A program made the position numbers and the translations under genes. From positions 2,418,001 to 2,482,000 of the forward strand of contig NZ_CP094467.1 in NCBI RefSeq assembly GCF_023347235.1: a stretch of DNA of 64,000 nt, read 5' to 3'. Positions 4,297 to 14,656 of this stretch are shown in pieces. The DNA is from Faecalibacterium sp. I4-1-79. GTDB lineage: Bacteria > Bacillota > Clostridia > Oscillospirales > Ruminococcaceae. Each line of letters starts with the position of its first letter. The stretch's first letter is position 1. Under the pieces are notes generated by a model. That model was not told the DNA's origin. It did not search any database and saw only the letters and a program-made list of their open reading frames with translations.

Positions 4297-4755
4297 ATGA
4301 AAAAATTCCTGAAAACGCTGGTGGTCGTGCTTTGCCTGTTCACGCTGCTGTGCTGCGCACTGCCGGCTGCATTTGCTGCCGACAAAACTTCAGGGAGCAA
4401 AAAGGAAGAGAACGTGTACGCCATTGGTATGGATGCCCAAGGCGGCATCTGCTCTACCGTGGTCACCTACACGAACCTGTCCGGCAAACTGGAGAGCACG
4501 CCTGAGCAGCCTACCATGACGGGCTACACCTTTGACGGCTGGTACACCGAGCCGGTGGGCGGCAGCAAGGTGACCACCTCCACCGTGTTCACCTCCGATG
4601 CCACCATCTACGCCCACTGGACTGCCAAGGCCAGTACCACTACCGTACTGCAGCCCACCACCCAGCCTGCCACTGGACAGTGGCAAAAGTATGTAGGGCC
4701 TGCACTTGTGGCCGGTGCCCTGCTTACTACTCTGCTGGTCGCCACCATGTTCTGA
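4297..4755 (+). CDS. Secreted or cell-surface protein with one InlB B-repeat
   Basis: This 152-residue protein has an N-terminal signal peptide (residues 1-28, ending AFA). One Listeria-Bacteroides (InlB B/Flg_new) repeat follows at about residues 58-110, recognisable from GYTFDGWYTEPVGGSKV and ATIYAHW. After a Thr/Gln/Pro-rich linker comes a C-terminal hydrophobic segment (about 131-151) that could anchor it in the membrane. There is no LPXTG motif and no basic tail. InlB-type repeats are beta-grasp modules common in adhesins. It is 46 bases upstream of the MAM-leader peptide and probably in the same transcript, so the two may act together at the cell surface. Function unknown. Confidence 0.75.
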   Translation: MKKFLKTLVVVLCLFTLLCCALPAAFAADKTSGSKKEENVYAIGMDAQGGICSTVVTYTNLSGKLESTPEQPTMTGYTFDGWYTEPVGGSKVTTSTVFTSDATIYAHWTAKASTTTVLQPTTQPATGQWQKYVGPALVAGALLTTLLVATMF

Positions 4756-4801
4756 ACACTGCTGTAAACGCAATGATACCATTGAAGAAAGGGATCTTAC
4801 C

Positions 4802-5035
4802 ATGACTACTTCTACCATGAAAATGCCCGCCAGCTATTCCGCTATCGAAGCCGAGGAGATGACCTATCTGGACGGCGGCGCCAGCAACGCTTATCAGGCC
4901 TTCCTGGACGTTGGTAAGGTGTTCAACTACATCGCCCGCATCTTCTCCGGTGCAAGCTCCATCATCAACAACGTCAACGTCATTTACCAGTCCTTTGTAT
5001 CGCTGAACAGCCTGCTGGGCAGCTTCGGCAAGTAA
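4802..5035 (+). CDS. Double-glycine peptide with MAM-type leader
   Basis: This 77-residue peptide has a leader ending in EAEEMTYLDGG (Gly25-Gly26) and a 51-residue hydrophobic, Ser/Asn-rich core with no cysteine. Double-glycine leaders are cut and exported by peptidase-containing ABC transporters. The leader segment MPASYSAIEAEEMTYLDGGA closely matches, from memory, the start of Faecalibacterium MAM (MPANYS.IAENEMTYVNGGA), but the core is much shorter than MAM and different. Start 4802 has AAAGGGA seven bases upstream; a second Met at 4817 would match MAM's own start more exactly. An in-frame extension to 4706 overlaps the upstream gene and is rejected. A strong terminator follows. No transporter or immunity gene is adjacent. 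It could be a bacteriocin-like or signalling peptide. Confidence 0.8.
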   Translation: MTTSTMKMPASYSAIEAEEMTYLDGGASNAYQAFLDVGKVFNYIARIFSGASSIINNVNVIYQSFVSLNSLLGSFGK

Positions 5036-5059: not shown

Positions 5060-5104
5060 ACGGGAGCCGCGCTTTTTTCGAAAAAGTGCGGCTCCCGTTT
5101 TTCG
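5060..5104 (+). terminator. Terminator after the double-glycine peptide
   Basis: ACGGGAGCCG and CGGCTCCCGT, extended by complementary GCTTTTTT/AAAAAGTG arms, form a long stem followed by TTTTTC. Confidence 0.85.
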
Positions 5105-5441: not shown

Positions 5442-5981
5442 ATGGCAGATCGTGAACTGCGGCGGATGCACCGCGCTGAACTAATAGAGATCATCTATGC
5501 GCTGAAACAGAGCGAGGACCAGCTCAAGGCGCAGAACGCTGCGCTCACCGCGCAGCTGCAGGACCGGCAGCTCCGGCTGGAAAGCGCTGGTTCCATCGCG
5601 CAGGCCGCGCTGGAGCTGAACAACGTGTTCGCCGCCGCACAGGCCGCCGCCGATGACTATCTGCATTCGGTACAGGCCAGCGTTGCGGACACCAACGCCA
5701 CCGCTGCCAACACCCTTTCGCAGGCACGCAGCGAGGCTAAACGCATTCTGGAACAGGCACAGGCAGACGCCGACAGTCTGAAAGCGCAGGCGCAGCAGGA
5801 ATGCGATGCTATGACCGCCGCCGCCGCACAAAAGCGCACCCAGACCGAGGCTGACTGCAAGGCCATGGTAGAGCGCGCCGAGCAGGAGGTGCAGCAGCGT
5901 TGGCAGGCATTTGACCACAAGGCCAACGAGTTGCTGGACCAGTACCGCAGCACAGACGGCCTGCCTTCGGAGGAATCATGA
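5442..5981 (+). CDS. Coiled-coil protein at head of the pilus operon
   Basis: This 179-residue, almost wholly helical protein is rich in Ala, Gln and Glu. Heptad-like coiled coil covers about residues 20-60 and 85-165 (QARSEAKRILEQAQADADS). There is no signal peptide or membrane segment. It resembles the DivIVA-like or 'DNA repair' annotated coiled-coil proteins that often precede signal peptidase genes in clostridial pilus clusters; that comparison is from memory. Its stop overlaps the start of the signal peptidase gene (ATGA), so the two are translationally coupled. A scaffolding or positioning role for pilus assembly is an inference. Confidence 0.7.
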   Translation: MADRELRRMHRAELIEIIYALKQSEDQLKAQNAALTAQLQDRQLRLESAGSIAQAALELNNVFAAAQAAADDYLHSVQASVADTNATAANTLSQARSEAKRILEQAQADADSLKAQAQQECDAMTAAAAQKRTQTEADCKAMVERAEQEVQQRWQAFDHKANELLDQYRSTDGLPSEES

Positions 5982-6568
5982 AAAAACGCGATATCCGGTT
6001 CGCTTCCATCCCTTCCACCGAGGAAGTGGCCGCAGAACGTGAGCGTCTTGCGTACCAGAGCCGCTACCAGCGGGTGCTGCGCAGTACGATCTATATTCTG
6101 GTGGTGGTAGCCGCAGTAGCCGTGCTGCTGGCTACGCTGTTTTTGCCGGTGCTTCAGGTCTCTGGCGACAGCATGAACCCTACGTTGAATGACAAGGACA
6201 TTATCCTGCTGGTAAAATCCAACCACATTGAAAACGGTGAGTTATGCGGGTTTTACTGGCAGAACAAGCTGCTGCTCAAGCGCATCATCGGGCAGCCCGG
6301 TGATGTGATCGATATGGACGTGAACGGCGTGGTCTCGGTAAACGGCGTGGCGCTGGACGAACCCTATGTGGACGCGCTGACCGTGGGCGAATGCGACATT
6401 CGGTTCCCCTATCAGGTGCCGGAAAACCGCTACTTCGTGCTGGGCGACCACCGCTCCACCTCCATCGACAGCCGCAGCAGCGTGATAGGCTGCGTTGAAA
6501 AAAGCCAGATCGTTGGCAGGGTTTTTCTAAGGATATGGCCCTTGTCCAGCTTCTCGTTGATCCATTGA
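5978..6568 (+). CDS. lepB: Signal peptidase I, pilus-operon copy
   Basis: A type I signal peptidase of 196 residues with one membrane segment (about 36-57). The catalytic serine is in GDSMNPTL (Ser65) and the lysine general base in LLLKRIIGQPGD (Lys101). The conserved GDHRSTSIDSR box lies near the end. It cleaves signal peptides of exported proteins outside the membrane. It sits between the coiled-coil gene and the three sortase-substrate genes, so it is probably the dedicated peptidase for the pilins, as in other Gram-positive pilus loci. The cytoplasmic N-terminus before the membrane segment is fairly long (35 residues). Confidence 0.92.
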   Translation: MKKRDIRFASIPSTEEVAAERERLAYQSRYQRVLRSTIYILVVVAAVAVLLATLFLPVLQVSGDSMNPTLNDKDIILLVKSNHIENGELCGFYWQNKLLLKRIIGQPGDVIDMDVNGVVSVNGVALDEPYVDALTVGECDIRFPYQVPENRYFVLGDHRSTSIDSRSSVIGCVEKSQIVGRVFLRIWPLSSFSLIH

Positions 6569-6590: not shown

Positions 6591-9500
6591 ATGAACGACA
6601 TTCTTAAAACGTACATGGAGCGGTTCCGCGAGGACCGGCACACCCTGCGGCGCTACACCGCATTTGTGCTGGCACTTGCCATGATCACCACCCTGTTCGT
6701 GAACTGGCAGCTGCATGGCGTGGGCATCTCGATGACCGCGCAGTACCAGTGCGGCGAGGAGGAGCACACCCACACCGCGGATTGCTACACCAAGGTGCTC
6801 ACCTGCGGCTACGAGGAAGGCGAGCTTGAAAATGCAGACGAGGTGGCCGCCGCTGCTGCGACCAGCCAGCCCACCGTTGAGGCTGAGCCCATGCCGCTGT
6901 CGCTGGAGCCGCAGATCGAGTTTGTGCCCCACGAGCACACTGAGGACTGCTACACCGAGGTGCAGACCCTGACCTGCATGGAGGAAGAGCACGTCCACGA
7001 TGACGACTGCTTCGACCCCGAGGATGGCAGCCTGATCTGCGACAAATTTGAGCATACCCACGACGAAAGCTGCTACACCACCGAGTACGAGCTGACCTGC
7101 GGCTTAGAGGAGGGCGAGCTTGTGGAGCAGGTGGTGGAGCCCACCCAGAGCGCCGCACTGGCAGCGATGGCTGTGGCCGAGCCCGTGGCGCTGGCACCGA
7201 TGGTGGACACCGTGGAGCCCATCTACCACCATCACACCGATGCCTGCTACGAGGAAGTGCTCACCTGCCCCCTGCCGGAGCACCACCACACCGTTGCCTG
7301 CCTGAGCAACACCTCCGCCGACCTTGAGACCCCCGAGGAGTGGCAGGCCGCCAACGCCGAGGCCGTGATGACCGGCAACTGGGCCGAGGATCTGGTCAGC
7401 GTGGCGCAGACCCAGCTGGGCTACGAGCAGAGCGAGAAAAACTTTGAGATCGACCCCGCGGACGGCGTGACCCTGCGCTACTACTCCCGCTACGGTCAGT
7501 CCTACGGCAACCCCTACGGCGAGTGGGACGTGATGTTCCTCTCTTACTGCCTGAAGTACGCCGGTATCCCCCAGAGCGCTATCCCGCAGGAGGCCAGCGT
7601 GCTTGCCCTGCGCAGTTCCATGAGCGACATGGACTGGCTGCTGGACGGCGAGGACGGCAGCGCCGCCGATGTGGGCGACATCGTTATCTATAATAAGTAC
7701 GTCACCCGCACCGTGGCTGTGGACAGCAGCGCCGACGGTGCAGCGGACGGTCTGGACGACCTGTTCAGCACGGACACTGAGGGCGAGAACGGCGCAGAGC
7801 TTGAGGAATCCGGCGCTGCTGCGTTGGATACCGTCCCTGCCGCCGAGGGCATGACCACCCTCGATACCCCTGATCTCCCCGATATCCCCGACGCCGCTGC
7901 GCCCAGCGTGGGTTCCCCCGCTGCCGAGCCGCAGACCACTACCGTGACTGACGCTTATCCCGTGGAGACCGTGGGCATCGTGAGCAGTGTGGACAGCGAC
8001 GCCGACACGCTGACCGTCATCTCCGGCGATGTGGACGGCAAGGTGGCTGAGGTCACCCTTTCTAACGCCGAGGTTCTGGGCGTGGTGAGCGTTGCCTATG
8101 CCCAGTATGCAGACGAGATGCTCTCCTCTGCCGTTGACGGCGCACTGCGGGCATCTATGATGCTTGCAGCGGCGGGTGTTGAGACAGAACTGCGTGAAGA
8201 CTGGATCACCGGCACTACGATCACGATCAATGGTGCTACCTATAATGTCAAGGGCAATAATAGCAGTTATTCCGATCTGCCCGACGGTGTTGTTGTTACC
8301 GTTAACGACAACGTTACCTTGAACTATGACTTTATGATTCACGATACAGCCGTTCAAGGTACAAATACTGATACCCTGACCTATAAGCTCCCCAGCCATC
8401 TTATTGCCTTGGAATCTGGTACAAAGGGTCCTCTGCTTAATGGAGCCGGCGATAAAATCGGTACCATTGAAGTTGATCAGAATGGTCTTGCAACCTTGAA
8501 GTTTGATAATGCTTTGACCGGACAGACCAGCGGCAAGTTTACCATTACCTGCCGTGTAAGCAAGACAACGACTACAACCGATAACAAGATCACCTTCCCC
8601 GGGGATAGCCATACTATCGAAATTAAGAATCAGACTAATCTCAGAATCGAAAAGAAGATTGAGAAAGACGATACTAACGGCTTGGAGATCACTCGGCTTG
8701 ATAACGATTACTACAAAGTTCACTATAAGGTTACCGTAAACTCCGATTACGGCAGCGGTGAGCCGATCGAGCTGAAAGACGTGATCAACTATATCAGTGA
8801 CACTTCTATGTTCACCGATATCAAGTATCAAAATGTCCATCTGCTCGATAGTCAATATGTGGTCAACGATAAAAACGAGTACTCTGATTATAAGTGGGAG
8901 CAAACTACCGTAGACGGTCGTCCTGCGCTCATTATAACAACAAAGAACGGCGAGAAACTGCCTGCGCTTGAAGCCGGCAAGTGGTATCGTTTGGACTACG
9001 AACTTGTGTTCAAGAAAACCAAGCAGGGCTGGGGTAAGATCGGTAATACAGCTATAGCCAACGGCAAGACCGGCGGCGAAGATGTCGATTTCAATGACGA
9101 GCTACAAAAAAGCGGCAGTCATGACCCGAAAACCAATACCATCACTTGGACAATTGATATCTACCCTAACGGCAACAAATTGACCGGGTATACGCTGAAG
9201 GATACCCTGCCTAATGGTACTAAAATTATAGGCGATATCATTATCAAGAACAATAACGGCGAACCAAAAGCCACAATATCTAAGTTTAGTGGTAAGACCA
9301 GCTTTACCTATACCTTCCCTGATGCAGACCCCTTCAACAAGGCTACTCCCGTGGGCGGTTACAAATACACGGTAACCTATACAACAACCGTACCGGATAA
9401 CTTTGAAACGCTTGGAAAGGTAACCAATACTGCAACGATCACGTTGAAGGACAAATCCGAGTGGAAGGACGAGGGTGACGCTACTTATAACAAGGGGCAA

Positions 9501-12035
9501 AAGGAAGTTACCAAGAAAGCTCTTGATCCTACTACTCTGAACAGTTCCCAGATGGTTGATGGCGTCTTTACCTTGCCGTGGAGTCTGGAGGTCAAGCTGC
9601 CCCGGAATGACTGGAGCGGAAGTAATAATAATAAGATAGAGATCACGGATACCTTTATTACGCCCAAGAACGGCGACCATTATGCTATCAAGAGCGAGCT
9701 GGAAAAAGACATCCTCGACCATTTGGAAATCACTGTGGATGGAACCACCTACAAATACAGCAATCTGCCAGATGGTCTGAAGTTAGAATCGATCAAATAT
9801 TATGGATCCGAGAATTGTAATGATAAATATGACCCTCCTCAGGATACTGACATCGTTCGCTCCTTCAAGCTTACATTCAGAAAGAGCGATACCTTTACAG
9901 GCTCGCTGGATAAGGTCGTGATCTCTGAGTACTCTACCAAGGCAAAATACGATAGCTCGAAGCTGAGTGCCGGTCAGACCATTGTGTTCGAGAACAAGGG
10001 TGAAGGCGTGACCGCCTCTTACCAATTTACCGTGCCCGCCGACAACACCAAGGCACTTGTCAAAACCTCTGCCAATAAGCCCGGTAATGATAGTGATGGC
10101 AATCCCCCGTACAAGGCCAACGGCGTCACTGTAAAATACGGCAACGGTTACAAGGATTTTGATGGCAACAAGTACGACGGCACCTATGTCTATTACCAGC
10201 TGGAGCTGACCCCCGGCAAGCTGGAAAACTGGACGGCTACAACTGTCACCGACAAGCTGTCTGAGCATCTGAGTTATGTTGAAGGCTCTGCTTATGTTGT
10301 AGTGCGCTTTGGTGATCCTAATACTATGTACACCGGCAACTCATGGCGTGGGTACACCTCTCAAGCACAATGGAATAGGGACGGGGACCCCACTAAATGG
10401 GTAGGGGAATCCACGAGAAACCTTTCGACCTCCGACTTCTTTAGTGTCACCCAGAGCGGGAAAGATTTAACATTTAAGCTTACCGAGAATTTCAAGTATC
10501 TGCATTCTCCCACCGCGAAATGTGTTGACCGTATCATGATCCGCTTTGCTGCAAAAGTAGACGATAACCTCTTGGATCTTACTAAGGAATCCGATTTTAA
10601 AATCGTCTCTAACTCTGCATCTTGGGGTGGATTAGACGCTAGCACAGATACCAAGGTCAAGTATGAATCCAAGCTTGTGAAAAAGACAGGAAAATACAGC
10701 AAAGATAACTATCGCGTAGAGTATTCTGTTATCATCAACCCCGATGCACTGAAGCTTGGCGATTCGGATACCATCACGCTGGAAGATGAAATGTCTACGG
10801 GAGGCGGTGCGGAAAATACTGCCGAGCTGGTACGCCCCAGCGTCAAGTTGTATGACTATGACACGATCAACAAGACAAAGGGTGCCGAGATCTCCAGCGA
10901 TGTATACTCGGTTCACTATCAGGAGCCTGATGCCACCAGCAATTGTTATCGTCTAACTGTCAGCGTACCAAACAGTCATGCCTATGTTCTGGAGTATGCC
11001 TATCGGAACACCTCCAACACTTCTTACTATATGAGCAACACTGCTAAGCTGCATGGTAAAGAGAGTACGGTTGACTCTATCCAGATGCAAACGTCCACCG
11101 CCCATGGCGAGGCACATTCTGCCGGTTTGACCCTGCACAAAGTTGATAGCCGCAACATTACAAAGCCGCTGGAAGGCGCAGAGTTTACGCTGCAATGGTT
11201 CGATCCTTTCGATGGAACGTACAAAGACGTTCAGACTGTAACAACGAACCAGAACGGTGACATCAACCTGACCTTCTCTGCCGGTTCCGGCGATGCAAAG
11301 CCCGGTAAGAATGCAGCAGGCAACACCATCCGTCCCCACGACTATCTTTACAGGCTGACCGAGACAAAAGCCCCCACAGGCTACCGCAAGGATGATAATT
11401 GGGCGCTATACTTCATCTGGACATCCGATTCCAGCCAGAAAGAAGCTGCTTACAGTCATGCTGTCGGCTCTAAAGAGAGTTCCATTATTGTAAACAAGGA
11501 TGCGATCAACTACTACTATGGTTCTGCTGCTGTCTACCTGCAATTGACCAACGAAAGCAATCGTCTTACCCTTGTAAAGCAGTGGTACGATAAGTACAAC
11601 AACCTTCTTGCTGCGGATAAGCAGCCGGATAGCGTTCAGGTGGAGCTCCGGCGCAGTAAGACTCCGCTTGCTGCCAACACACCGGTCGATGACAACAACA
11701 CCGAACTCGTTGATAAGATCAAGCTGACAAAGGCAGACAACTGGACTTACAACTATGAAATCCCTGATGCCTATGCGGCCTACTACTACTATGTGAAGGA
11801 AGTCCAGTCCGGCGCAAGCTATAAGGTCAGCTACACCGGCAACGATGGTGTGCAATACGGTGGTACGATCGTTATTACCAACACCGAAACCGATGACACC
11901 GGCTACGAGCTCCCCTCTACCGGTGGCACCGGTACACTCCCGTATACAGCCGTGGGCGGCACAATGATGCTGTCTGCGCTGGCATATAGTTTTATCCACC
12001 GCAAGCGCAGACACGAAGGGAGGGCAGATGACTAA
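6591..12035 (+). CDS. LPXTG pilus tip/adhesin protein with degenerate CHAP-like domain
   Basis: A giant 1814-residue wall protein. A signal/membrane segment spans about residues 21-40. Next come six short motifs of the type EHTHxxxCY (about 59-65, 115-121, 133-140, 154-161, 213-219, 231-237), which look metal-binding or disulfide-forming. Residues 263-368 resemble a CHAP amidase, but the usual WCAMF catalytic site reads WDVMF, so the nucleophile is missing. A long series of Thr/Asp/Lys-rich beta domains follows (residues 520-1500). Near the end are a SpaA-like domain (LHKVDSRNITKPLEGAEFTL, with E-box LTETKAPTGY) and a Cna-B-like domain. The anchor is LPSTG (about 1774), a hydrophobic segment and HRKRRH. 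A GAGGAGG site precedes the ATG. The 3' two thirds look less G+C-rich than the 5' part. It is probably the tip adhesin. Confidence 0.85.
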   Translation: MNDILKTYMERFREDRHTLRRYTAFVLALAMITTLFVNWQLHGVGISMTAQYQCGEEEHTHTADCYTKVLTCGYEEGELENADEVAAAAATSQPTVEAEPMPLSLEPQIEFVPHEHTEDCYTEVQTLTCMEEEHVHDDDCFDPEDGSLICDKFEHTHDESCYTTEYELTCGLEEGELVEQVVEPTQSAALAAMAVAEPVALAPMVDTVEPIYHHHTDACYEEVLTCPLPEHHHTVACLSNTSADLETPEEWQAANAEAVMTGNWAEDLVSVAQTQLGYEQSEKNFEIDPADGVTLRYYSRYGQSYGNPYGEWDVMFLSYCLKYAGIPQSAIPQEASVLALRSSMSDMDWLLDGEDGSAADVGDIVIYNKYVTRTVAVDSSADGAADGLDDLFSTDTEGENGAELEESGAAALDTVPAAEGMTTLDTPDLPDIPDAAAPSVGSPAAEPQTTTVTDAYPVETVGIVSSVDSDADTLTVISGDVDGKVAEVTLSNAEVLGVVSVAYAQYADEMLSSAVDGALRASMMLAAAGVETELREDWITGTTITINGATYNVKGNNSSYSDLPDGVVVTVNDNVTLNYDFMIHDTAVQGTNTDTLTYKLPSHLIALESGTKGPLLNGAGDKIGTIEVDQNGLATLKFDNALTGQTSGKFTITCRVSKTTTTTDNKITFPGDSHTIEIKNQTNLRIEKKIEKDDTNGLEITRLDNDYYKVHYKVTVNSDYGSGEPIELKDVINYISDTSMFTDIKYQNVHLLDSQYVVNDKNEYSDYKWEQTTVDGRPALIITTKNGEKLPALEAGKWYRLDYELVFKKTKQGWGKIGNTAIANGKTGGEDVDFNDELQKSGSHDPKTNTITWTIDIYPNGNKLTGYTLKDTLPNGTKIIGDIIIKNNNGEPKATISKFSGKTSFTYTFPDADPFNKATPVGGYKYTVTYTTTVPDNFETLGKVTNTATITLKDKSEWKDEGDATYNKGQKEVTKKALDPTTLNSSQMVDGVFTLPWSLEVKLPRNDWSGSNNNKIEITDTFITPKNGDHYAIKSELEKDILDHLEITVDGTTYKYSNLPDGLKLESIKYYGSENCNDKYDPPQDTDIVRSFKLTFRKSDTFTGSLDKVVISEYSTKAKYDSSKLSAGQTIVFENKGEGVTASYQFTVPADNTKALVKTSANKPGNDSDGNPPYKANGVTVKYGNGYKDFDGNKYDGTYVYYQLELTPGKLENWTATTVTDKLSEHLSYVEGSAYVVVRFGDPNTMYTGNSWRGYTSQAQWNRDGDPTKWVGESTRNLSTSDFFSVTQSGKDLTFKLTENFKYLHSPTAKCVDRIMIRFAAKVDDNLLDLTKESDFKIVSNSASWGGLDASTDTKVKYESKLVKKTGKYSKDNYRVEYSVIINPDALKLGDSDTITLEDEMSTGGGAENTAELVRPSVKLYDYDTINKTKGAEISSDVYSVHYQEPDATSNCYRLTVSVPNSHAYVLEYAYRNTSNTSYYMSNTAKLHGKESTVDSIQMQTSTAHGEAHSAGLTLHKVDSRNITKPLEGAEFTLQWFDPFDGTYKDVQTVTTNQNGDINLTFSAGSGDAKPGKNAAGNTIRPHDYLYRLTETKAPTGYRKDDNWALYFIWTSDSSQKEAAYSHAVGSKESSIIVNKDAINYYYGSAAVYLQLTNESNRLTLVKQWYDKYNNLLAADKQPDSVQVELRRSKTPLAANTPVDDNNTELVDKIKLTKADNWTYNYEIPDAYAAYYYYVKEVQSGASYKVSYTGNDGVQYGGTIVITNTETDDTGYELPSTGGTGTLPYTAVGGTMMLSALAYSFIHRKRRHEGRADD

Positions 12036-12188
12036 ACTGCACTTCCCTGCTGGCGTGCCGGGGCTGAGCCCCCGCCCGCCCAGCGCAAAGTTTACGCATT
12101 AGTCCGAACACAAACCACACCCCTCTCCACCCCCTGTGCAAAATGCAGGGGGCGGCAAGGGGCAGAGAAAAGAAAGGAGCTTTTCTCC

Positions 12189-13730
12189 ATGAAGAAAGCA
12201 ATGAAAAAACTCATGGCTGCGCTGCTGGCAGTTGCTATGGTTTGCGCCATGGCCATCCCGGCGTTTGCGGCAAAAGGTGAACCCGTTACCAACTCTGGTG
12301 TCAGCCTTACGAACCATGACTTTGAAGCCTATCAGATTTTCAGTGCAAAGCTGGATTCTACCAAGGGTACGCTGTCCGATGTTAAATGGGGCAACGGTGT
12401 TAAGGGCAACGAGCTTTTGGTCGCTTTACAGGCCGATACCACCCTTGGCGATTTTGCCGACTGCTATAGCGCCTCTGATCTTGCAGAGAAACTAGCAACT
12501 TTCACTACTGAAAAAGCCACTAAGTTTGCAGCCTTTGTAGCTAACGGCTATCTGTCTAATACCAAAACCGCGGGTACCGGCACCATTGAACTTACCGATG
12601 CTGGCTATTATCTGATCAAAGACGTTACCGAAGTGGAAGGCGAATATGATGCTTCGAACCTGACCCTTCTGCTGGTGAGCGGCCCTGAAACTGTTACCCC
12701 TCAGGTAAAAACTGATATCCCCACCCTTCAGAAGAAGGTCAAAGACAAAAACGATTCCATTGGCGAATCTGCTACTACTGGCTGGCAGGATTCTGCCGAC
12801 TATGATATCGGCGATACTATTCCCTATCAGCTGACCGCTACTCTGGGCAATGTGAGCAACTTCGACACCTACTATGTAGAGTTTGTCGATACCATGACTC
12901 ACCTGTCTTATGATTCTATCACCTCCGTCAAGGTCGGTGATAAAACTTTGTCCGCTGGTGACTACACTAGCAATTGGGATTCTGCAAATAAAAAGCTGAC
13001 TGTTTCTATTGGTAATGTGAAGGCGTTCGGTGCAACCAACGGCTCCACAATCACGGTCGAATATACCGCCCGTCTGGATTCTGATGCTGTCATTGGTTCT
13101 ACCGGCAACCCGAACGAAGCTTATCTGATATTCTCCAACAACCCGAATGGCAGTGGTTACGGCAAAACTGCCCCGGACAAGAACATTGTTTTCACCTACA
13201 AAGTCATTGCCAATAAGGTCGATGAGCATGACAAACCTCTGCCCGGCGCAGCTTTTGCTCTGTACAAAAAACTGCCTGCTGTCCCCAACCCCGGAGATGG
13301 CACTTCCTACATTATGGAGGGCAATGACGCTTATGCACCGGTCAAGGAACTGAACGTTGGTGCAAACGGTGAGGTTGAGGACAAGGAACTGACCAACTTC
13401 GAGTGGGATGGCATTGATGACGGCGATTACATGATCAAGGAGATCATCACTCCTGCCGGCTATAACACCATTGAGCCCATTAAGTTTACTGTTACTGCCA
13501 CCCATGAAACCAACGCTGACGATCCCAAGTTCACTGAGCTGTTGGGCGGCGATGATTTTACCGGTGCGGTATCCACTGGCGCTCTGACCGCCAACATCCA
13601 GAACCGCATGGGTTCCACCTTGCCCGGCACCGGCGGCATCGGCACCACCATTTTCTACGTTGTTGGCGGCGGCCTGATGGTTGCTGCAGCTATCCTGCTC
13701 ATTACCAAAAAGCGCATGGAGAACCGCTAA
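12189..13730 (+). CDS. Major pilin, SpaH/EbpB type, LPXTG-anchored
   Basis: A 513-residue sortase substrate with a signal peptide (cut after AFA, about residue 28) and an N-terminal SpaH-type domain. A lysine-rich pilin-motif region follows (VKTDIPTLQKKVKDKND), then a central isopeptide-type domain. A C-terminal SpaA/Cna-B-like domain carries the E-box DGDYMIKEIITPAGYN. It ends LPGTGG (478-482), a membrane segment and KKRMENR. Length and order fit the shaft pilin polymerised by class C sortases. The gene lies between the tip protein and the sortase. The 150-base gap before it holds a hairpin CCCCCTG..CAGGGGG, and its GGAG site could pair with CTCC just before the ATG, so translation may be tuned. 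Confidence 0.9.
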   Translation: MKKAMKKLMAALLAVAMVCAMAIPAFAAKGEPVTNSGVSLTNHDFEAYQIFSAKLDSTKGTLSDVKWGNGVKGNELLVALQADTTLGDFADCYSASDLAEKLATFTTEKATKFAAFVANGYLSNTKTAGTGTIELTDAGYYLIKDVTEVEGEYDASNLTLLLVSGPETVTPQVKTDIPTLQKKVKDKNDSIGESATTGWQDSADYDIGDTIPYQLTATLGNVSNFDTYYVEFVDTMTHLSYDSITSVKVGDKTLSAGDYTSNWDSANKKLTVSIGNVKAFGATNGSTITVEYTARLDSDAVIGSTGNPNEAYLIFSNNPNGSGYGKTAPDKNIVFTYKVIANKVDEHDKPLPGAAFALYKKLPAVPNPGDGTSYIMEGNDAYAPVKELNVGANGEVEDKELTNFEWDGIDDGDYMIKEIITPAGYNTIEPIKFTVTATHETNADDPKFTELLGGDDFTGAVSTGALTANIQNRMGSTLPGTGGIGTTIFYVVGGGLMVAAAILLITKKRMENR

Positions 13731-13810: not shown

Positions 13811-14656
13811 ATGAAAAAGAACAAAAGCACCATTATACTGATCCTCGTCTTTTTCGTGGGTCTATCCGTGATGTTATACCCCACCATCAGCGATTACGTC
13901 AACCAGCGCAACCAGTCCCGCGCGGTGGCAAGCTACGCGCAGGACGTGGACAACATGACCGATGCGGATTACAGCGCCTACTTTGACGCCGCCGATGCCT
14001 TTAATGCACAGGTGGCCGCCAACGAAAACGCCCTCTACCGCCCGGATCAGCTTACCGGCTACAACGAAACGCTGGATATTACCGGCACGGGCATTATGGG
14101 TTACATCACCATCTCCAAAATCGGCGTGGAGCTGCCCATCTACCACGGCACCGACGACAGCGTGCTGCAGATCGCCGCAGGCCACTTAGAGGGCACCAGC
14201 CTGCCGGTGGGCGGCGCGTCCACCCACGCGGTCATCTCGGCACACCGCGGCCTGCCCAGCGCAAAGCTGTTTACAAACCTTGACCAGCTGGAAGTGGGCG
14301 ATACCTTTACCATCACCGTGCTGGACCGGGTGCTCACCTACGAGGTGGACAAAATTTCCATCGTGCTGCCCACCGAGACCGACGAGCTGAAGATCGCCGA
14401 AGGCAAGGACTACGTTACCCTGATGACCTGCACCCCCTACGGCATTAACACCCACCGTCTGCTGGTGCGCGGCCGCCGCGTGGAGACCCCGGATCAGTAC
14501 AAGCACCTCCGCGTTACCGCCGAAGCGCTTAAAATTGAACCCATTATTGTTGCGCCCATTATGGCGCTGCCCATGCTGCTGATCTTGCTGATCGGTATGC
14601 TGCTTTCTACACGCAAACCCAAGAAAACGAGAGGAGAAAAACATGAAAAGCATTGA
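13811..14656 (+). CDS. srtC: Class C sortase (pilin polymerase)
   Basis: A 281-residue membrane transpeptidase with an N-terminal membrane segment (8-27) and a C-terminal one (about 245-268). The latter is typical of class C enzymes that build pili. The catalytic residues are visible as His145 in ISAHRG, Cys207 in TLMTCTPYG and Arg216 in NTHRLLVRG. It cuts the LPXTG signals of the neighbouring pilins and joins them to a pilin lysine. AGGGAG precedes the ATG. Its last 14 bases overlap the start of the next pilin gene, whose ribosome site therefore lies inside this gene. Confidence 0.93.
   Translation: MKKNKSTIILILVFFVGLSVMLYPTISDYVNQRNQSRAVASYAQDVDNMTDADYSAYFDAADAFNAQVAANENALYRPDQLTGYNETLDITGTGIMGYITISKIGVELPIYHGTDDSVLQIAAGHLEGTSLPVGGASTHAVISAHRGLPSAKLFTNLDQLEVGDTFTITVLDRVLTYEVDKISIVLPTETDELKIAEGKDYVTLMTCTPYGINTHRLLVRGRRVETPDQYKHLRVTAEALKIEPIIVAPIMALPMLLILLIGMLLSTRKPKKTRGEKHEKH

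Follow-up and report, generated by a model that had tools for sequence, protein, structure and literature searches.

Among the described systems, the anti-inflammatory protein MAM of Faecalibacterium stands closest to the peptide reported here: it has a leader of the same family and is a proposed substrate of a peptidase-containing ABC transporter (PCAT), which would cut it after Gly-Gly (PMC8836110, PMC12184118). The genes for the PCAT, an adaptor and an Ig-domain protein are already described and the PCAT is proposed as the exporter of MAM (PMC8836110), a route for which in silico support was later added in a paper that also reports MAM at the cell envelope (PMC12184118). PMC12184118 also gives a MAM family signature, MMMPANx(8,11)VxGG, a rule for PCAT substrates (Gly-Gly at -2/-1, Ile/Leu/Val at -12, Glu at -8, Leu/Met at -7 and a hydrophobic residue at -4, given there as Val), and a count of 257 leader-motif proteins in 50 genomes, called MAM-like. 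PCAT export of MAM is already published as a proposal; the new part of this study is the leader on cargoes other than MAM, on which no paper was found in a literature search that covered few subscription papers.

PCAT1 with CtA, and ComA, both named in PMC12184118, combine the same leader pattern with a C39-ABC transporter, as does the system described below, which has a HlyD-type adaptor. Unlike in those systems, a single transporter would here export, in trans, several cargo families that are unrelated and dispersed, and a 151-aa protein of no known family lies beside it. A substrate gene usually stands next to its transporter; this is not so for our peptide, but it is so in four genomes of other genera. 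Class II bacteriocins also resemble the peptide in having a double-glycine leader and a short cationic amphipathic core, but the peptide has no family match, no recognisable immunity gene and no transporter in its cluster. The precursors of the prochlorosins and SyncA carry a conserved leader. There, likewise, many precursors are served by one promiscuous enzyme, but the products are lanthipeptides modified by ProcM or SyncM (PMC10783134, PMC9872173), whereas the PCAT cassette showed no modifying enzyme on inspection by eye, and our cores are longer.

A short precursor gene in Faecalibacterium

The window, a stretch of 64,000 nucleotides, corresponds to C1:2418001-2482000 of the single contig (3,227,950 bases) of Faecalibacterium sp. 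I4-1-79. The peptide gene occupies 4802..5035 on the plus strand (ATG at 4802, stop at 5033-5035, 77 aa), is preceded by a ribosome-binding site, AGAAAGGG, at 4786..4793 (+), and encodes MTTSTMKMPASYSAIEAEEMTYLDGG, a leader of 26 residues (4802..4879, +), followed by ASNAYQAFLDVGKVFNYIARIFSGASSIINNVNVIYQSFVSLNSLLGSFGK, the predicted mature core of 51 residues (4880..5032, +). Position, strand and core length are those given by an earlier, sequence-only reading of this DNA. Purine-rich sites were seen by eye at the same position before the gene in 13 compared loci. The gene starts 46 bases behind that of an InlB-repeat protein and is followed by a strong intrinsic terminator with an 18-bp stem and a T tail (5060..5098, +); a hairpin with a T-rich tail was seen by eye downstream of the peptide gene in 11 of 14 loci. 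The InlB-repeat and peptide genes are probably co-transcribed, in a unit that this terminator probably ends.

Of the 31 genomes in the genus sample, 12 besides that of the window carry full-length orthologues (46-99% identity), and dN/dS was 0.03-0.34 in the nine computed pairs of the family, which together indicate that the gene is real. The other matches in this genus search were either to the leader or to proteins with cores that belong to other clusters. In addition, there is a 37% paralogue in G018, the record of F. prausnitzii ATCC 27768 carries a 97% identical peptide, and the genes around the peptide in G014:C5 are mostly 92-98% identical to those of the window. No relative of the peptide was present in IMG/VR or PLSDB, which gives no sign of a viral or plasmid home. 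At E <= 1, the 77 aa matched nothing in NCBIfam and none of the bacteriocin models in Pfam. Two other matches are uninformative: one to a coronavirus protein, below the Pfam threshold (E 0.13), and the best one of the family profile to solved structures (E 0.25). Neither a Sec signal nor an LPXTG motif was seen in the 77 aa and no Pfam pilin or anchor model was matched, so the peptide does not look like a sortase-anchored pilin.

Kinship of the leader with that of MAM

When the 42-residue MAM N-terminus was searched against the same genome, the window peptide was found at E 0.001, one of six places at E <= 10. These six MAM-leader places include true MAM (C1:1224302), a tandem pair at C1:211.4-211.9 kb and a second pair at C1:1446.1-1446.6 kb, in which the leader of the rear member is weak (E 0.5). 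With a profile of five MAM leaders, the window leader scored 26.8 bits (E 1.6e-7 among 981 window ORFs), and the best of 19,620 shuffled ORFs reached 7.3 bits. A profile of 16 leaders from which the window family was excluded gave it 44.3 bits, compared with 6.2 for the next window ORF and 7.8 for the best of 19,620 shuffled ORFs. A chance likeness is excluded by the MAM N-terminus match together with these margins over the shuffles. The genus profiles A2 and A3 both contain the window leader, and their E-values are therefore circular for the window gene. The leader shares 14 of 22 residues (64%) with the A2-165 MAM leader as quoted in PMC12184118, and fills every position of the substrate rule (I -12, E -8, M -7, L -4, G -2, G -1); the MAM signature itself is absent, MKMPAS...LDGG standing in its place. 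The near match to the MAM leader noted in the earlier reading was borne out, and a leader search of the kind it proposed found MAM-type leaders both in the genus and in other genera. Among the matches listed, 28 of 31 genus genomes match profile A2 at E <= 1 and 27 of 31 have 3-8 MAM-type leaders each; G027 has one match (E 0.887), and G019, G020 and G021 have none.

A common leader on unrelated cores

Precursors were collected from 117 loci, which do not hold every leader match of the genus, and nine rows were dropped: eight ORFs that by eye looked like chance matches (loci L041, L048, L049 and L051-L053, and one ORF each in L028 and L090; best score 17.3 bits) and a MAM ORF lacking Gly-Gly (L039). 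This left 106 distinct Gly-Gly precursors, so that their number is at least 106. Clustering of the cores by blastp at E 1e-5 placed 97 of them in five families of 28 (MAM), 26, 15, 14 (window) and 14 members, all from Faecalibacterium; the remaining nine, eight of which come from other genera, are singletons or pairs. Core length ranges from 49 to 132 aa across the five families and from 49 to 54 aa in the window family.

Comparison of core profiles by hhalign gave probabilities of 0.1-2.5% in nine of the ten family pairs. The exception is MAM against the 15-member family (14%, E 0.0019), and these two may be distant relatives. When leaders were added, the probability rose to 88-98% for all ten pairs, in nine of the ten over 21-31 columns at the leader end only. 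Moreover, the median identity within families is higher for the leader than for the core in all five (leader/core 76/36, 62/21, 57/25, 67/47 and 43/37%). The least certain member of this set, judging from its sequences, is the 14-member family other than that of the window: its leaders are weak, lack the EMTY residues and score 6-16 bits, not above the dropped chance matches, and it was retained because it stands in tandem after the 15-member family.

These comparisons support the view that the MAM-type leader is an export tag common to unrelated cargoes, and a wider one than first proposed. The sequence-only reading had suggested a tag on small secreted peptides with swapped cores; the swapping stood, with cores that fail to align between families, apart from the 14% pair, but the restriction to small peptides did not, as cores reach 132 aa. 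Its judgement that the 51-aa core is unrelated to the MAM core of about 100-130 aa also agrees with the profiles: the window and MAM cores align with a probability of 0.2%, by which the window peptide is not a MAM homologue and that identity was rejected. The peptide further differs from MAM in lacking its signature and in lying in a pilus-linked locus.

Some MAM genes themselves have odd leaders. In G022, a MAM gene (L039 1495-1839) has a leader without the Gly-Gly stretch, and two MAM genes of G013 (L117 7781-8206 and 11090-11485) have a shortened leader without the EMT residues; these reflect either natural variation around the cleavage site or errors of assembly.

One PCAT in nearly every genus genome with the leader

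A search with PF03412 found one PCAT in the genome of the window, at C1:1972865, as two stretches of one 778-aa ORF that contains C39 (with DCAAAC and AHF motifs), ABC_membrane and ABC_tran domains. It lies about 450 kb from the peptide gene; no transporter was found by Pfam among the eight neighbour genes scanned. Both results fit the earlier reading, which had seen no transporter beside the peptide and had advised looking for one elsewhere in the genome. Downstream of the PCAT are a 151-aa protein, a HlyD-type adaptor (PF13437) and an Ig-like surface protein (by eye). The 151-aa protein (L013 11356-11811) is present in six aligned PCAT cassettes at 37-45% identity and has no match in Pfam, NCBIfam or PDB sequences; a GyrI-like identity, suspected by eye, was dropped as unsupported by these searches.

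Exactly one such PCAT locus occurs in each of 26 of the 31 genus genomes; in 25 of them its ORF spans 776-846 aa, and in G029 the frame is open for only 203 aa. A C39 match is present in 27 of 31, G021 having only a different 293-aa C39 frame. With G021 and G027 entered as having neither, leader and PCAT are both present in 26 genomes, the leader alone in one, the PCAT alone in none and neither in four (Fisher p 1.6e-4, for species that are not independent). The leader-only genome is G026, an assembly that is 77% complete. We also observed a charged insertion of about 30 residues within the C39 domain of the Faecalibacterium PCAT (L013 8860-11196), as a result of which the Pfam match falls into two parts in each of the 26 genomes with this PCAT; the leader-linked PCATs of G086, G209, G273 and G321, from other genera, have the C39 match in one stretch.

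Leader and PCAT outside the genus

In the family sample of 297 genomes, 14 matched the leader profile at E <= 0.05. Strong leaders (E <= 6.2e-7) were limited to four Faecalibacterium genomes and G086, G209, G273 and G321; the six weak matches (E 0.004-0.04) look like chance and were not counted as leaders. C39 is present in 8/8 of the strong-leader genomes and in 76/297 overall (p 1.4e-5). In the four from other genera, a PCAT stands no more than about 7 kb from the leader genes, and an adaptor, an Ig-like gene and the gene for the small protein accompany it. The order sample has the leader (E <= 0.001) in 5 of 394 genomes, namely four Faecalibacterium and G504, where an ABC ORF, truncated where the stretch ends, immediately precedes the leader gene. 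At E <= 1e-4, the leader occurs in 4 of 391 genomes of the class sample (the genome of the window, G769, G899 and G1001) and in only one of 398 in the phylum sample, again the genome of the window. Each of the four outside loci of the class sample is directly behind an ABC transporter ORF; the C39 motif was recognised in the ORF of G1001, but neither in G769, at a contig start, nor at the two loci of G899, whose frames span 589 aa. A Lachnospiraceae MAG also has both leader and PCAT.

In a tree of 23 transporters, from which 3 of 26 loci were left out for want of a usable ORF, five leader-linked PCATs of other genera, from G086, G209, G273, G321 and the Lachnospiraceae MAG, and three from Faecalibacterium form one group with support of 100/100. 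The 15 other C39 transporters of the family, three of them long-branched, fall outside it, and the second PCAT of G209 is among these. The leader tracks one PCAT clade. Two proteins with MAM-type leaders were also observed in Halolactibacillus miurensis (L145 1172-1543 and 3532-3891), a Bacillus relative; there is no PCAT in the 4.2 kb of sequence covered there.

Genomic neighbourhood of the leader peptides

Upstream of the peptide is a small surface protein with one InlB-type repeat (4297..4755, +; PF09479, E 2.6e-14), which by eye has a signal-like N-terminus and a hydrophobic C-terminal tail; the repeat was already recognised in the sequence-only reading. Downstream, a pilus cluster begins with a coiled-coil-like protein (5442..5981, +) that has only sub-threshold matches in Pfam and NCBIfam and is conserved beside the peptide. 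It continues, on the same strand, with a signal peptidase I (S26; 5978..6568, PF10502, E 1.4e-30), a large pilin-like LPXTG surface protein of 1814 aa (6591..12035; SpaA, Gram_pos_anchor), a pilin backbone subunit (12189..13730; PF16569, E 8.1e-19, SpaA) and a sortase (13811..14656; PF04203, E 1e-24). By blastp at 1e-4, the InlB-repeat gene is upstream of the peptide in 12 of 14 loci and the sortase-pilus cluster adjoins in 10 of 14, which makes the InlB-repeat protein its closest association. L111-L114, which hold other core families, were left out of this count. The G015 locus and the G018 paralogue locus have the InlB-repeat gene alone, without the sortase cluster, and G003 (with A2-165 type MAM) and G013 have neither by blastp. 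The peptide of G003, whose MAM begins with the 42 residues used as query, is 54% identical to that of the window. A GntR regulator upstream, its type assigned by eye, is next to the peptide in only 2 of 13 compared loci.

In nine compared loci, the two large pilus proteins (6591-13730) are 29-54% identical, apart from one 279-aa piece at 95%, and the signal peptidase and sortase of the cluster are 72-99% identical. On these comparisons, the pilus structural genes appear to be swapped or fast-changing.

Other leader families also have fixed neighbours; the names used for these are assigned by eye. The 26-member family adjoins a pair of genes of 390 aa and 472 aa in 8/8 loci compared with the one in the genome of the window. 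In G000, at C1:211.4-212.0 kb (L010 6201-7025), tandem leader peptides stand beside this pair, whose 472-aa member is MBOAT-like, and dnaK-dnaJ-like genes are on the far side of the tandem pair in 6 of 8 loci. The 390-aa/472-aa pair and dnaK-dnaJ are 69-99% identical across loci, the tandem leader peptides 30-97%. The 15-member family and the 14-member family other than that of the window lie in tandem beside a maltose-type operon in 7/7 loci.

Proposed export and role of the core

The core has a net charge of +2 and a mean hydropathy of 0.51. AlphaFold predicts one helix with low confidence (mean pLDDT 64.9, pTM 0.37), and a periodicity is seen in hydropathy (p 0.002) and, marginally, in conservation (p 0.039). 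The invariant residues include G38, N42, A45, S49, S52, S53 and N56 (77-aa numbering), which would fall on the same side of that helix. It seems probable from these predictions that the core is an amphipathic helix.

In our interpretation, the single PCAT of the genome would read the leader as an address tag through its residues at -12, -8, -7 and -4, cut after Gly-Gly and export the 51-aa core, though no transporter gene is nearby, and would handle MAM in the same way, along with three or more further cargo families dispersed over the chromosome. Recognition, cleavage and export of the window peptide by this PCAT are very probable on the evidence of leader and clade, despite points that speak against one-PCAT export: the PCAT is unlinked to the peptide, G026 has leaders without a PCAT, the PCAT frame of G029 spans only 203 aa, and the ABC ORF ahead of the two G899 leader loci has no recognised C39 motif. 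Once exported, the helix with its invariant small/polar stripe might pack against itself or an envelope partner, for which the InlB-repeat protein or the pilus machinery is the likeliest candidate. We put this step forward tentatively from the neighbours, both of which are missing by blastp in G003 and G013, and from the reported envelope location of MAM. For the whole account, a double-glycine precursor exported in trans by the PCAT with a core that acts at the envelope, we estimate a probability of roughly 0.78.

Other readings give the peptide a different task. An unmodified class II bacteriocin, exported by the PCAT and inserting into the membranes of competitors, would explain the double-glycine leader, the mature length of 51 aa, the charge of +2, the hydropathy of 0.51 and the amphipathic periodicity, as well as the invariant small residues four apart (A45, S49, S53). 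We nevertheless consider it unlikely, given that neither a Pfam bacteriocin nor an NCBIfam model was matched at E <= 1, that the gene has a terminator downstream and an InlB-repeat surface protein upstream with no recognisable immunity gene, and that its position is kept under purifying selection. A signal sensed by the producer population is improbable: pheromones are usually shorter than a helical core of 51 aa, the Pfam scan of eight genes showed neither a sensor kinase nor a response regulator, and the upstream GntR regulator adjoins the peptide in so few loci (2/13). The argument in its favour is that some PCATs secrete peptide pheromones, as stated in PMC8836110. Modulation of host immunity in the manner of MAM, which is assayed with an NF-kB reporter, is more doubtful still; the two proteins have the leader in common, and only the leader, which is predicted to be removed before export and so gives no ground for a common activity, and the cores are unrelated (hhalign 0.2%).

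The last reading concerns the transporter, in that the likeness of the leaders might be convergence among double-glycine leaders and so uninformative on a common PCAT. The -12/-8/-7/-4/GG pattern is indeed general among PCAT substrates, and similar leaders occur in H. miurensis with no PCAT in the 4.2 kb covered. We give this very little credence, for the likeness exceeds the general pattern (P, A, Y and EMTY residues; 44.3 bits with the own family left out), the leader is rare (5/394, 4/391 and 1/398 genomes of the order, class and phylum samples), and it follows one PCAT clade.

Implications

As the leader is a tag on unrelated cargoes, also outside Faecalibacterium, leader-based searches can gather proteins that are not MAM, and some of the 257 MAM-like proteins of PMC12184118 may be other cargoes. 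It also follows that mutation of the PCAT should cost the cell several exported proteins, not MAM alone. Beyond this, we suggest with considerable reserve that Faecalibacterium may have a leader-addressed surface proteome that bypasses Sec, in which one PCAT exports about five fast-changing helical families from scattered but fixed loci, each with its own local set of envelope genes as partners (for the window peptide, the InlB-repeat protein and pili), MAM being merely its best-known and most abundant member. The families found here provide a concrete list of cargoes to seek in envelope and supernatant proteomes, and make it possible to examine whether the peptide beside the pilus genes works together with the proteins encoded around it.
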